From the NCBI GenBank assembly GCA_015345905.1, contig JADDTR010000006.1, positions 432,692 through 496,691 of the forward strand: 64,000 nucleotides of DNA, given 5' to 3'. Positions 11,352 to 47,500 of this stretch are shown one piece after another (positions within the stretch are counted from its first letter, which is position 1; every line of letters begins with the position of its first letter). This DNA is from Aotearoamyces nothofagi (Eukaryota; Ascomycota; Leotiomycetes; Leotiales; Tympanidaceae). Below the pieces are notes generated by a model. The model ran no database searches. It saw nothing but the letters and a program-made list of their open reading frames with translations, and had not been told where the DNA came from. The translations under genes were made by a program, and so were the position numbers.

Positions 11352-11668
11352 ATACTATCCCCCCCCCCCCCCCTAAATAATCTTGGACCGGGGGGTTTGC
11401 CTAAGATAGAATCAAGGGTACAACCAGGACATAGACTGGGAGCTGAACCAGTGAAATTGCTCGTATCGAATGGTCGGGAAACAGCACGAGTCTCGTCAGG
11501 GCCCATGAGGGTGCCGATACCCAAAAAGACACGTAGCCTCACGTAGCCTTATGATGTTATTGGCGGAATTCTCTTGTTTTATACCCTGGCACCTACTCAG
11601 ATTTACCCTCGAAGAAAACCCCCCGGTCCAAGATTATTTAAGGGGGGGGGGGGGGGGGGGGTAGTATT
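11352..11668. mobile_element. MITE-like element capped by poly-C / poly-G inverted repeats
   Basis: The left arm is ATACTA, then 15 C (11359-11373), then TAAATAATCTTGGACC and six G. The right arm, read in reverse complement, is ATACTA, then 20 C (complement of G at 11642-11661), then TTAAATAATCTTGGACC and six G. The arms are about 45-50 bases and nearly identical apart from C-tract length. The 220-base interior has no coding capacity, so this is a non-autonomous element or a decayed remnant. A related shorter copy lies at about 12085-12224. Confidence 0.7.
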
Positions 11669-12362: not shown

Positions 12363-12367
12363 AAAAA
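12363..12367 (-). terminator. Pol III T-run after 5S rRNA
   Basis: Five T on the minus strand at the end of the 5S sequence, with a second T-rich cluster about 15-20 bases further on. Confidence 0.65.
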
Positions 12368-12485
12368 CATACAACAGCAGGTATTCGCTGGTGGTCACCC
12401 ACCCAACTACTAATCTGCCGATTTCAAGCTTATGTATGGCAGAGCGGACGGGATGCCCAGTTCTCTTGAATCTATGGTCGTATGT
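12367..12485 (-). rRNA. 5S ribosomal RNA
   Basis: The minus strand reads as a fungal 5S rRNA of about 119 bases. It starts ACATACGACCATAG, contains CATCCCGTCCGCTCTGCC and TTAGTAGTTGGGTGGGTGACC, and ends CAGCGAATACCTGCTGTTGTATGT. The terminal helix pairs ACATACGAC with GTTGTATGT (one G-U). Helix II pairs ATTCAAG with CTTGAAT-like sequence, and GCAG/CTGC closes another stem, so changes from the family sequence keep pairing. A T-run follows immediately (terminator) and TATATGA lies 24-30 bases upstream. The copy therefore looks intact. Dispersed 5S genes are known in filamentous ascomycetes. Confidence 0.93.
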
Positions 12486-12590: not shown

Positions 12591-12733
12591 TACAGTGGGT
12601 GGCCAGAAGTATTCGACCTGGTACGTGCCCGCCGAACCAATAGATCATGTAGACAATAAGACTGAATAATTTTATTGGTGATGAAAAGTGGGCCTGCACG
12701 TACCAGGTCGAATACTTCTGGCCACCCACTGTA
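12591..12733. mobile_element. MITE with 38-base perfect terminal inverted repeats (Tc1/mariner-like)
   Basis: The left arm 12591-12628 begins TACAGTGGGTGGCCAGAAG. The right arm 12696-12733 is its exact reverse complement for 38 bases. The spacer is only about 67 bases. Both ends sit at TA, consistent with the TA target duplication of the Tc1/mariner/pogo superfamily, and CAGT ends are typical of it. Perfect arms suggest a young insertion or recent exchange between copies. No transposase is present. Confidence 0.88.
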
Positions 12734-18142: not shown

Positions 18143-18592
18143 GGCCTTTGATGAAGCTAGCAAGCTATATCAAGAGAAAGTTGCATCCGTCTTACAAAGT
18201 ACGACGAGGATTGTTTTTCATGTTGCTGCATGCTCATGCGAGGTACAGCTATAGTTATATAACAACCTCCCTCTCCTCCCTATGCCCCATGTGGCATAAC
18301 GAACTAGCGGGGCTTGACGAAGAGGGCTGGCTTGCTAAAGAATTTGTGGAGTTGAGAGCGGTGCTTCGCCCTTCTGTATTGAGAGAGAGCCACAGGGGTG
18401 TGCTCGAGATCTGGGGGATGGGAACGGCCATCTGGGAGCCAGGGGAGTCGAAGAGTCGCTCGCTGATGCTCGGGGGGCCTTCAAGGATGGGCAGAGCGAG
18501 TTTCGTGACTGTGTGATCAGGGACAATTCCGGCAGCATGCCTTAGGCCGCCGGGGGTAGGGGGTGGTGGGGGGAGCTAGCTCGCGAAGGCGG

Positions 18593-19350
18593 CCTGGGGC
18601 ATCCTGGGGCGCCCGGATTTCGCTTAGGCATGCAGTGGACCGTTCGACGCGCACGCCAAGGCCCGCCACCCTCCTGTTCCTACAGTACCTCCCCACGGCG
18701 CCACGCTGCCTCATCACGCGGTTCCCAGGATCCATGGCTCGCCGCACACCAGGCACGGACTGGCGAATGAAACGCGAGGAATGCCGCAACGCCCCATATT
18801 CCACCAGCCGTAATATAATGGCAGATAGGCGTCTCTTCATTCTCTGAAAATCGAGAGCCTTCAATGGGACAGAAGGCGTGCAGTTTGGGTATGCCGTGGA
18901 TTCGCGGCAACCGCGTGCGTATCTTCCCAGGATGGAGAGTCTTGCGATTGCCAGCGAAAATATCAGCACGCAGTACCCCGGGCAAGAGCTAGCCCGCCTG
19001 GGCCTGGGGCGGCCTAAGGCGCCCGGATTTCGCTGAGGAAGGAAGTGGACTGTCCCGCATGGCCTTATGGCCTCGTCGCACTTGTCTTTCGACGAGAGAC
19101 AGAGAGAGGCGGACAGAAGGAGAGAGAGAGGCATTAACGCGCTCTTTTTTTCCTAAGAAAGGTAGTTGGAAAGAATCCCAGTACGGCATACGGATAAGAG
19201 ACCTGTACGGATAAACGTCGGACGAGGCATCCGGATAAGAGATGCGGGTGAAGTGTGCGGATGAAGTGCACCTCAGGCGGACCTGTCTAGCCTGCGCGGC
19301 CTAAGGTCTGGGCGGCCTGGGGCAGCGTGGGGCACCTAGGTTTATGGCTT
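18593..19350. repeat. Three dispersed copies of a GC-rich module
   Basis: Modules of the form CCTGGGGC-n-CCTGGGGC then GCCCGGATTTCGCT occur at about 18593-18640 and 19000-19055. A weaker third copy lies at about 19310-19350 (CCTGGGGC, GTGGGGCACC). The first two continue similarly with AGTGGAC-GT. Probably duplicated remnants of one larger repeat. Confidence 0.6.
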
Positions 19351-19948
19351 GTAGGCTTGTATTCCACTGCAATTGAATACGGAATACGAGCGCACCTCCG
19401 GAGTTCTACCGGAGGCTGAAAAGGCGACAGGGGACGGGAACAGGCTACAAGGCGGCAGGCGGCCAAGCGGCAGGTGACAGGCGAAGACAGAGGCTCGTGG
19501 CTTGTGACAGTGGCACAACTTCCTTCACCTGCGGTCTGTTGCGAGCCCCCCTTACGTCGTTCCAAACCCATTCTCTGGCCCTTTCAACCGCCTTTCCAGG
19601 ACATACACAGAGTGGCAGCATCTATACAGGTATTTCTGAAAGCGTGCCCAAAAATGATGCGAGGTGGTTCGGTAAAATATCAGCTATGGGATACTACGGG
19701 ATAACCCCCCGCCGACTCCCTCAGCCTATCTCGCTATCCTCGTCCTTGTCCTTGTCCGTGGAATTCTCTGACTCCTACGAGTAACTGTCGTCGTGATCTA
19801 AACCTTCTACCGTTCCGTTGCCCTCTACTATATTAGGAATGATCTATAGATCCTTCTGAACCGGTCCAGCTTGTCTATATTGGACATTGCAAGTCGTAGA
19901 TCTAATATGTCAGGATGTCCAGTATTACATCAACCCAGACTAATATAC

Positions 19949-20146
19949 TTTCGACATCAAATCCCACTTGAGCAGGGAACATTTTAAGACTCATCAAGCA
20001 AATCTCTAACTGAATCGATATAGGTAAGTAAGAGGCGTCCCTTATATATACCTTCGAAACCAAATCCTTCTTAAGTAGACAATATCTTAAAGATTTATCA
20101 AGCAATCTCTAACTGAATCTATACAGCTATATAAGAGGCACCCCTT
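19949..20146. repeat. Direct tandem duplication (period about 104) with RIP-like differences
   Basis: Two adjacent copies, about 19949-20043 and 20053-20146. Both carry TTCGA-A-CAAATC near the start and AATCTCTAACTGAATC then AAGAGGC-CCCTT at the end. Many differences are C to T or G to A in the second copy. Confidence 0.7.
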
Positions 20147-22260: not shown

Positions 22261-24221
22261 ATGGCAACCGTGGTTTTAGGAGCGCAATGGGGAGATGAGG
22301 GTAAGGGGAAGCTGGTGGATATCTTATGTCCTCAGATGAAGCTTGTATGCCGTTCTCAAGGTGGAAACAATGCCGGACATACGATCGTAGCAGCAGGGCA
22401 AACTTACGATTTTCATATTTTGCCCTCAGGGTTGCTCAACCCGGATGCGAAGAACCTTGTTGGATCAGGCTGCGTCGTTCATATTCCGGCGCTGTTTAAA
22501 GAGCTTTCCGACCTCGAGGCCAAGGGTCTGGCGAATGCGAGAGACAGGCTGTTCATCAGCGACAGGGCTCACGTCGTTCTAGATCTTCACCAAAAGGTGG
22601 ACGGACTGGAAGAGATAGAGCTTAAAGGCGGCAAGATCGGTACAACTGGCAAGGGGATTGGACCATGCTATAGCACCAAGGCTTCGAGAAGCGGTATCAG
22701 AATTGCGGACGTGTTTAACGAGGAGCTCTTTGAGCAGAAAGTTAGATCACTTGCTGCTGGATTCAAGAAGCGATTCGGTGATCTGCTACAGTATGATCCG
22801 GAAGAGGAGATCGCTCAAATCAAGATCTATAGAGGACAACTCGCTCCTCTCGTCATCGATCAACTTCCATTCCTTATGAGCGCCCAGAGTGCGAAGACGC
22901 CGATTCTGATCGAAGGCGCGAATGCTATCATGCTTGACATAGACGCTGGAACATACCCATATGTCACATCGAGTAACAGTGAGTGCTCCGTTTATTAGAG
23001 TAAAGGAGTAAGAGGAAAGAGCTCTAGTCCCAGTATGGCAAGGGAGTGCACCTATAATCTTCCCTCTTTACTTCAGATTCTCTCGTTACTCATTCTACTA
23101 CCCTTCTCTTTCTTAAAATGGCAAAACTGACTCTGGTAATGGGTAGCTGGCCTAGGAGGAGTATTCACCGGCTTAGGAGGACTAAATCCTAGAAACATTA
23201 AGTCCGTCATTGGAGTTGTGAAGGCCTATACTACAAGGGTTGGAGGGTAAGTGCTTCCTTGGAGCGTCTGGATAAGATTGAAGGTTTCTAGTTTTAGTAT
23301 GACAAGGGCGTACACCTAGAATCTTCCATCTTCCTCCCGAATATCTCATTGCTTATGCTATTCTATTATCTCTCGGAGTGGCGGGACTGACTCTAATAAC
23401 GTGTAGTGGGCCCTTCCCGACCGAAGCACTCGACGAATACGGGGACAAACTGCAGATGATCGGAAGAGAGTTTGGCGTATGTAACTTCTATCTTTTTGCG
23501 TTTGTGTTGCAACGCAGCCCTGAGAAACCTACGAGAAGACTTTTGCTAACCTAGAGATGCTAACTAGGTCACGACCGGTCGCAAACGACGCTGTGGATGG
23601 CTCGATCTCCCAGTGGTCCGATATTCAGCAGCCATGAACAGTTATACCGAGATCAATCTTACGAAGCTCGACATCCTTGACACCTTCCCTGAGATCAAGG
23701 TCGCTGTGAATTACAAAGATCCTCAGACCAAGGAGGTCATTCAGGGCTTCCCAGCAGACCTGTCTACAGTTGAGCACCTGGAAGTAGAGTATCTGACCAT
23801 GGAAGGTTGGATGGCTCCAATCGGAGCGTGCAAATCGTTCTCCGATTTGCCGAAAGCTGTAGGTGTTGTCTCGCGAGATGTCGCAGCTGCTTGCTGACTC
23901 TTATCTTATAGTGCAGAGCATACATTGAGTTCATTGAGAAGGAAGTCGGTGTGAAGAGTAAGTTCTCCTTTTGCTTGAGCAATGATATGAGAGTCAAAAT
24001 TCTTGGCTCTGGTATTGCGATGCAGTACACCTTGAAGCTCTCGTCTCATCCCATTTTTTGTGTCAAAATATCCTCCGATCTTGCTGTTGTCGTCGAAATG
24101 CTGACTTTCATCATCCAGTTTCGCATATAGGTATTGGTAAGTCAAGCCCCAAGCCCGCCACTTGAAGCTACTACTAACAGGCTATGCAGGACCGAGGCGC
24201 GAGGATATGATCATCAGGTAG
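22261..24221 (+). CDS. Adenylosuccinate synthetase
   Basis: Catalyses IMP + L-aspartate + GTP to adenylosuccinate, the first committed step to AMP; cytosolic. Seven exons: 22261-22978, 23147-23246, 23407-23476, 23568-23858, 23912-23957, 24119-24136 and 24190-24221. All phases agree and total 424 residues, the usual fungal length. Motifs: P-loop-like [11 protein letters not shown] (residues 7-17), [15 protein letters not shown] (about 127-135), [31 protein letters not shown] and the terminal REDMIIR. The ATG at 22261 opens the conserved [14 protein letters not shown]. Oddities: six introns, one exon of only 18 bases, and introns 1 and 2 (168 and 160 bases) that are homologous to each other. 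Confidence 0.95.
22979..23146 (+). repeat. Intron 1 of adenylosuccinate synthetase: introner-like copy A
   Basis: 168-base GT-AG intron. Its 3' 120 bases (from the TCTAGT at about 23023) align with intron 2: AGTATG-CAAGGG, CACCTA-AATCTTCC and ACTGACTCT before the AG all match in order. AGTAAAG (22999-23005) is complementary to CTTTACT (23066-23072), so it may fold. Confidence 0.75.
23247..23406 (+). repeat. Intron 2 of adenylosuccinate synthetase: introner-like copy B
   Basis: 160-base GT-AG intron in the next position of the same gene, inserted in a different phase (2 versus 1). Its 3' 120 bases (from 23287) align with intron 1 over most of their length with only small indels. Confidence 0.75.
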
Positions 24222-24695
24222 GAGAGATCTACCTGCTCTGTCACTAAACCCATGTTTGTGGGTTTGTATACACAACTCTTTTCTTCTCATCAAAATAGAA
24301 TTATCAAAATAGAATTATTATTTTCAGCCCAATTCTAGCAGAAGGGTACTCTGGTCTATCCCAAGTGCATCCTTAGTTGCCAGCAGAAGCTTTTCACAGT
24401 GCTGTGTCTTCATCAATGGGCGATTGTCCCCGCTTTCCATAGTAAAAGCAAACATGTACTCCGACGTCTTCCATATTAATTTATCGATTACTAGGTATCG
24501 GAGCTAGATCTCTTTGATTTTCTTGTGGCTATCCTTTTGCATAGTTGGTTAAGGGCTCGACATACTCCACTCCAACATGGGCAGCCTAAAAACGTAATTC
24601 GGTTCGCTGGGCCACATTCTGTGGTATGTTTTGGTAGCGACTGGGTAGTTCATAACGGTTATTCATTATTTTCGGAGAGACACGTTCTAAGTGCA
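24222..24695. other. Spacer between convergent genes
   Basis: 3' flanks of two convergent genes. ATCAAAATAGAATT is duplicated at about 24289-24316. Nothing else is recognised. Confidence 0.5.
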
Positions 24696-46586: not shown

Positions 46587-47094
46587 TAATCAGGCCGGCC
46601 GGTTCTATTCTTGCGATGGAAACCTCTGGCCTGGACGGACTCACAGCGCTCGCTCGTCGCTCTCGTCGCCGACCGGCCGGGCTGGGCTACGCACGACCCC
46701 AAACGCGGCTGCATTGTTTCGTATCTGCCTCTTATTTTTTTGTGTGATCGGTAGTTAGTTAGTCGAGCTGTGATGGAGCTGCGGACGGTGGGACTGCGGG
46801 TCTTTCTGTCCTCTGCTCTCTTCTTTCTTTCTTTCTTTCTCTCTCTCTCTCTCCTTCAATCGGGGGCTCTCGTCAGCGCGTGACATGACATGTGGCCATG
46901 ATGAATTCTGCAGCTCGCTCGCTCGTCCATCTCCATCTCTCTCAATGGCATCTGCGCCTTGACGGCGGGGCATCTCGGCTTGGTCAGTATGTGCTGGGGA
47001 TGACGAGGGATGTCGGCAGGGGGTGTGACTGTATATCCCACCGGCGCAAGACGGCGCAGATGAGGAATCTGGGAGGTATCTGGAGGGGTTTATA

Positions 47095-47500
47095 GATGTG
47101 TAGAGTATCTGTGTAGAGTATCTATGTCCTATGTAGAGTACCGGTGTAAATACTGTGTAGAGTACCTGTAGAGTACCTGTAGACTCCCTATGTAGAATAC
47201 CTATGTAGATAGATACCTGTGTAGAGTACTGTGTAGATTACCTGTAGAGTCCCTATGTAGAGTACCTATGTCCTATGTAGATTACCTGTAAATACCTGTG
47301 TAGATTACCTATGTAGATTACCTGTAGAGTACCTGTGTAGATACCTGTGTAGATTACCTGTGTAGAGTCACTGTGTAGAGTCCCTATGTAGAGAATACCT
47401 GTGTAGATTACCTATGTAGAGTCCCTGTAGACTCCCTATGTAGATACCTAGGTAGATACCTATGTAGAGTCCCTGCGTAGATACCTGTGCAGAGCCTTGT
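47095..47500. repeat. Minisatellite with TGTAGA-n-TACCTATG type units
   Basis: About 400 bases of variable 12-18 base units built from TGTAGAGTACC, TGTAGATTACC, TGTAGAGTCCC, each followed by TATG or TGTG. About 28 units can be counted roughly. Low coding content. Confidence 0.85.

Follow-up and report, generated by a model that had tools for sequence, protein, structure and literature searches.

An old family of three homologous introns within the adenylosuccinate synthetase gene of Aotearoamyces nothofagi

How several introns of a single gene come to resemble one another while the exons around them do not is the question raised by the adenylosuccinate synthetase gene (AdSS) of the fungus Aotearoamyces nothofagi. 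The gene occupies positions 22261–24221, on the plus strand, of the stretch of 64,000 nucleotides analysed here (the window, C6:432692-496691), which belongs to a genome of 25,475,336 bases in 55 contigs. A first-pass annotation of the window had described introns 1 and 2 of this gene as copies of each other and had proposed that they are recently gained members of an introner-like family. It is clear from the analysis that introns 1, 2 and 5 form a real, old and gene-bound family, and that this is not an introner family of many copies.

The spliced reading frame of AdSS consists of seven exons encoding 424 amino acids, and the protein matches PF00709 with an E value of 5.1e-170. Its residues 2–423 match the solved adenylosuccinate synthetase 5i33 (3e-146), the match being gapless at all six exon junctions. 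The six introns measure, in order, 168, 160, 91, 53, 161 and 53 nt. Intron 1 (22979–23146, plus strand, phase 1; GTGAGT...ACTGACTC...GGGTAG) and intron 2 (23247–23406, plus strand, phase 2; GTAAGT...ACTGACTC...GTGTAG) are separated by an exon of 100 nt (23147–23246, plus strand) without duplication; the coordinates, lengths and phases first given for the two, as well as the unduplicated exon between them, were all right. Excision of intron 1 yields SSNTGLGGV, which aligns without gap with SSSTSIGGV of 5i33, and excision of intron 2 yields RVGGGPFPTE, which is identical in 5i33. Intron 5 (23958–24118, plus strand, 161 nt, phase 1), missed in the first reading of the sequence, is near introns 1 and 2 in length, unlike the other introns of the gene.

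Introns 1 and 2 can be aligned globally from end to end with 113 of 168 columns identical and a score of 49.5, against a maximum of 23.5 in 2000 Markov shuffles. Their local score was reached by none of 2000 exact dinucleotide shuffles (maximum 17.0) and was the best (49.5; next 22.0) among the 100,128 pairs formed by 448 predicted introns of at least 80 nt, all lying within 264 kb of the contig that carries AdSS. Counted back from the acceptor, 28 of 45 positions are identical in the two introns, the next best pair having 24 (control mean 11.3, sd 2.9). The match of about 120 bases in the 3′ parts that had been described for this pair is a real similarity, the extent of which was understated; the common origin claimed for the two introns is upheld by their rank among predicted introns and by the comparison with shuffled sequences, in which their score lay above all 2000 shuffles in each of two tests.

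The third member emerged from a profile of introns 1 and 2, built from sequence only, which matched positions 23958–24109, starting at base one of intron 5, with an E value of 6.7e-7. Over 282,138 bases from 27 sources, and up to an E value of 10, this profile gave three matches, namely introns 1, 2 and 5, and nothing else. By global score the three AdSS pairs rank first, second and third (49.5 for introns 1–2, 14.5 for introns 1–5 and 10.5 for introns 2–5; next pair 2.5) among 6105 pairs of 111 predictions of 140–190 nt (mean −22.0, sd 6.5). Furthermore, when introns 1 and 5 are compared without gaps from the donor, 49 of the 84 residues at positions 7–90 are identical, the next best pair reaching 40 among 65,341 pairs, introns 1–5 included, of 362 predictions (mean 21.1, sd 4.0). 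Other measures are less telling for intron 5: by local score introns 1–5 are merely fourth of the 100,128 pairs (20.0, behind 22.0 and 21.0), introns 2–5 are not among the 25 best, and at its 3′ end intron 5 shares 17 of 45 positions with intron 1 and 16 of 45 with intron 2, which barely exceeds the background (mean 11.3, sd 2.9). In the ungapped donor register neither introns 1–2 (29 of the first 90) nor introns 2–5 (28 of the first 90) stand out; introns 1 and 2 carry early indels. The control introns were taken from a rough gene finder trained on 31 open reading frames, which predicted 624 introns in the 264 kb (2072 N bases included), with the strands read separately. It over-predicts; in AdSS it returned, besides the six accepted introns, two that were rejected (22301–22429 and 24218–24327), so that the control set represents intron-like sequence rather than proven introns. 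At the level of sequence, introns 1, 2 and 5 are demonstrably of common descent, and their homology extends to the donor in introns 1 and 5 and to the acceptor in introns 1 and 2.

The edges of this homology are informative with regard to the manner of copying. The 40-nt exon flanks of introns 1, 2 and 5 are unrelated, with 4 to 8 of 20 positions identical in register and with local scores matched by 161 to 996 of 1000 shuffles. The introns are flanked by no repeats longer than 3 nt, and no terminal inverted repeat (TIR) beyond chance was found in them, 434, 993 and 53 of 1000 shuffles scoring as high for introns 1, 2 and 5, respectively. They occupy three different insertion contexts, in two phases, and are seamless, without target site duplication (TSD) or TIR, which is a trait of fungal introner-like elements. 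The signs of DNA-transposon introners (TSD and/or TIR, with copies in many places) are absent from introns 1, 2 and 5, and so is the duplicated exon segment that marks tandem genomic duplication, the exon flanks being unrelated. Intron transposition leaves homology that spans the intron from donor to acceptor and stops there, and this was found, with the 3′ end of intron 5 as its weak part. Judged by these edges, the copying evidently ran from donor to acceptor without exon sequence. Duplication of a gene segment, already held inadequate in the first-pass annotation, is ruled against because it would carry exon sequence, and a transposon family is disfavoured because copies elsewhere, often with TSD or TIR, would be expected. 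No second copy of AdSS was detected in the genome by a search with a 296-residue part of the protein.

Copies elsewhere were sought with several patterns and profiles. A 22-base pattern (35 places, common to the three introns, at most 3 mismatches) found exactly these three in 25.5 Mb and nothing in the control; being built from introns 1, 2 and 5, it matches them by construction. A looser 18-base pattern found the three introns and 9 further places, against 19 in the reversed control, and none of the 9 places fits the three-intron profile across the whole intron. The best of them, L047, scored 14.6 bits, with an E value of 7.5e-5 in the 3,609 bases searched that corresponds to about 0.5 when scaled to the genome; it covers positions 9–90 of the 167-position profile with a 10-base insert, has no donor at its start and does not run from donor to acceptor. 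Two candidates were rejected as family members, L049 having 8.8 bits and no donor and L048 lying in an open frame. A pattern drawn from the 5′ portions of introns 1 and 5 matched those two alone (control 0). Patterns from introns 1 and 2 gave six further places (one and five, with 2 in the control for the five), which were taken as chance; aligned locally with introns 1 and 2 they scored between 8 and 18, and the highest score, 18.0, belonged to L014 and spanned 22 bases. When introns 1 and 2 were used as queries in a DNA similarity search of the genome, each matched only itself; as the search missed the sister intron, it carries no weight. In the window, over which it was run with filters off, the three-intron profile yielded no additional member (the next best match had 6.9 bits and an E value of 0.34), and it yielded none over 218 kb. 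In Rfam no family was found for the introns, a match to mir-3596 (E 1.1) being far below the cut-off.

The reach of these patterns was estimated by leaving out one member at a time. The resulting mismatch of 16% (pooled, 28-column core) gives the looser pattern a chance of about 0.69 of catching a similar member, so that about three further members would lead to detection at 95% probability; with the rate of intron 5 alone (6/24), about nine are reckoned. A large family of like divergence elsewhere in the genome is unlikely by this estimate, and a handful of worn relatives could have escaped the patterns. The introner-like family first proposed would need many copies in unrelated genes, and the patterns find no convincing copy outside AdSS. 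The absence of other genomic copies had been named beforehand as evidence against that proposal; within the reach of the patterns no copy was found outside AdSS, yet a third one, intron 5, is present inside it.

The proposal of a recent gain is likewise unsupported, since the Kimura two-parameter (K2P) distances, 0.44 for introns 1–2, 0.69 for introns 1–5 and 0.79 for introns 2–5, are not those of a recent family. The corresponding transitions and transversions number 34 and 17, 37 and 34, and 38 and 35, respectively. For Eurotiomycetes a mutation rate of 1e-9 to 1e-8 per year, taken here as per site, is quoted in PMC2395259; at these rates introns 1 and 2, if neutral, would have split approximately 22 to 220 million years ago. 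Two rounds of copying, one after the other, agree with the distances; in these, intron 5 and the lineage of introns 1 and 2 would have separated first and introns 1 and 2 from each other afterwards.

We consider it probable that introns 1, 2 and 5 derive from a single intron through two or more rounds of copying within its own gene, most likely by reverse splicing. An excised intron lariat, with the spliceosome still bound, would stay at the site of transcription and be inserted by reverse splicing elsewhere in the transcript from which it came or, alternatively, into the single-stranded DNA of an R-loop in the same gene; the copy would then be fixed through reverse transcription and recombination or repair. 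Copying that is restricted to introns and to one transcript unit is to be expected of intron transposition by reverse splicing as defined in PMC3443670. We infer from this pattern both the reverse-splicing step and the novelty of the positions. More tentatively, AdSS may hold a gene-bound intron lineage, that is, one spliceosomal intron that for tens of millions of years repeatedly reproduced in its own gene with no escape to other genes, as a footprint of reverse splicing in cis; this wider reading is possible and somewhat doubtful.

Several points weigh against this account. The exon junctions of introns 1, 2 and 5 (ACA|CTG, AGG|TGG and AGA|TTT, respectively) are not strong AG|G proto-splice sites, AG|G being the proto-splice consensus. 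Splicing of the AdSS introns is deduced from the continuity of the protein, not from RNA. According to the account given in PMC3443670, the demonstration of reverse splicing is limited to a Prp22 mutant, in which the intron returned to its original position and to no other. That the positions were newly gained is a presumption; the viral and prokaryote collections that were searched contained no fungal AdSS orthologue, a match found there (L021, 31%) being on a contig titled Clostridiales MAG. As to the confinement to one gene, the profile searches covered about 1% of the genome (approximately 282 kb), and the patterns from introns 1 and 2 alone missed intron 5, so that the genome-wide claim rests on the three-intron patterns and the sensitivity estimate. 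The E value of L047 stands on the same side, though this place was chosen by a pattern.

The main rival still standing is that older introns at fixed positions were overwritten by a copy of a neighbour, whether by gene conversion, by template switching or by reverse splicing at junctions already present, and that no intron was gained. The three introns lie at a short distance from each other in the same gene, as overwriting would have it; most of the suspected reverse-splicing events in ref. 44 of PMC3443670 are said there to sit at already intronic positions; and the collections searched, viral and prokaryote, offer no orthologues to exclude it. Ordinary gene conversion, however, needs shared flanks and usually leaves the edges of its tract inside the intron, and is disfavoured because it would usually stop inside the introns, whereas in AdSS the homology extends as far as the splice sites, with unrelated flanks on either side. 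Overwriting is on balance unlikely, albeit an explanation to be reckoned with.

Less probable still is that introns 1, 2 and 5 are all that can still be recognised of an old introner-like family, once genome-wide. Fungal introner-like elements quickly become indistinguishable from regular introns as described in PMC4457414, and a weak hairpin shared by the three introns recalls the symmetry reported for introner-like elements in PMC8469720. Against such a past stand the searches, which returned no convincing fourth member by patterns in 25.5 Mb or by profile in about 282 kb, and the oddity that the sole survivors would all be in one gene.

The hairpin-capable stretch corresponds to alignment columns 26–98 and lies at 23004–23076 in intron 1, 23268–23339 in intron 2 and 23983–24054 in intron 5 (all plus strand), where the intron's own fold has −21.6, −19.2 and −20.2 kcal/mol and z values of −1.4, −1.9 and −2.2, respectively. 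The consensus fold of these columns has a z value of −2.5, with 23 of 1000 column shuffles as low, in a region picked post hoc; over the full length z is −0.6, and when introns 1 and 2 are folded whole, their stability does not exceed that of shuffled sequences (z 0.60 and 0.43). The three-intron profile also matches the minus strand of each of the introns weakly within the hairpin stretch (6.2 bits with E 0.55, 3.6 bits with E 3.5 and 2.9 bits with E 5.8), as inverted symmetry would give. That selection on an RNA element common to the three introns has preserved the similarity, which would then be more than a leftover of copying, is highly improbable: the middle of introns 1 and 2 (columns 45–112) is more alike than their 5′ part (52/67 against 18/34) and columns 26–98 can be folded as a hairpin in all three introns (81% of 75 cells paired), but the consensus fold has only the z value of −2.5 in the post hoc region and −0.6 over the full length, its covariation score was matched by 68 of 500 shuffles, Rfam holds no family for the introns, and the middle of introns 1 and 5 is not better conserved than their 5′ part (35/67 against 22/38).

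The remaining introns of AdSS, namely intron 3 (23477–23567, 91 nt, phase 0), intron 4 (23859–23911, 53 nt, phase 0) and intron 6 (24137–24189, 53 nt, phase 1), all on the plus strand, lie outside the family; none of the 32 matches of the three-intron profile in the window, listed up to an E value of 10 with filters off, overlaps any of them. Upstream of the gene a 103-nt unit is tandemly duplicated (19943–20146, 78%), and at 18573–19053 a sequence of about 70 nt occurs twice in direct orientation (77%), 413 nt apart. A short element at 12591–12733 has inverted ends of 43 nt (95% complementary). The 26-base end of this element occurs at 17 places of the genome, 12 of which form six pairs 112–113 nt apart (start to start), and these numbers and paired ends mark it as a family resembling miniature inverted-repeat transposable elements, whose ends look Tc1/mariner-like. 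Near it lies a 5S rRNA gene (12366–12485, minus strand, 79 bits). A second element, at 11359–11655, has inverted ends of 40 nt (98%) containing long runs of C and of G, and a minisatellite-like array of TGTAGA and ACCT motifs occupies 47088–47494. Elsewhere in the genome, a degenerate 5.8S rRNA-like fragment at C3:475762-475911 (L005 1501–1650) was the sole match of the 5.8S search (44.7 bits), other rRNA genes not having been searched; it has perhaps been mutated by repeat-induced point mutation.

The origin of spliceosomal introns is still disputed, and AdSS with its three homologous introns offers a natural test of reverse splicing in cis against genome-wide introners and overwriting. In a literature search, covering listings and the starts of abstracts, no case was seen in which three homologous introns are restricted to a single gene whose exons are unrelated, and a search on the intron positions of AdSS gave nothing useful. 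Introns of Drosophila Xdh are said to have arisen by duplication (Tarrio et al. 1998), the new intron reportedly resembling its neighbour in the same gene; this is an insect gene. Outside the ascomycetes, most of the introner families that can be judged show DNA-transposon signs according to PMC9860276. The sister stwintrons of Hypoxylaceae described in PMC8469720 are, like the introns of AdSS, similar in sequence and without flanking short duplications; unlike them, they occupy novel positions in different genes and have terminal inverted repeats of 45–55 nt. In Cryptococcus, several alike introns are likewise found in one gene, but these lie within a repetitive DNA region that expanded, as reported in PMC2395259. 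Fungal introner-like elements share with the AdSS introns the copying of the whole intron, the lack of a clear TSD or TIR and a possible hairpin, and differ from them in that AdSS holds three diverged copies in one gene. Unambiguous gains by intron transposition numbered 14, in two genera, in Table 1 of the 2012 review PMC3443670. The intron transposition of Zymoseptoria and its relatives, in which an intron is likewise copied elsewhere in the same gene, differs from the case of AdSS in that the latter has three members, of which introns 1 and 2 are adjacent while intron 5 follows after two unrelated introns, and in that its copies are old (K2P 0.44–0.79) and surrounded by unrelated exon flanks.
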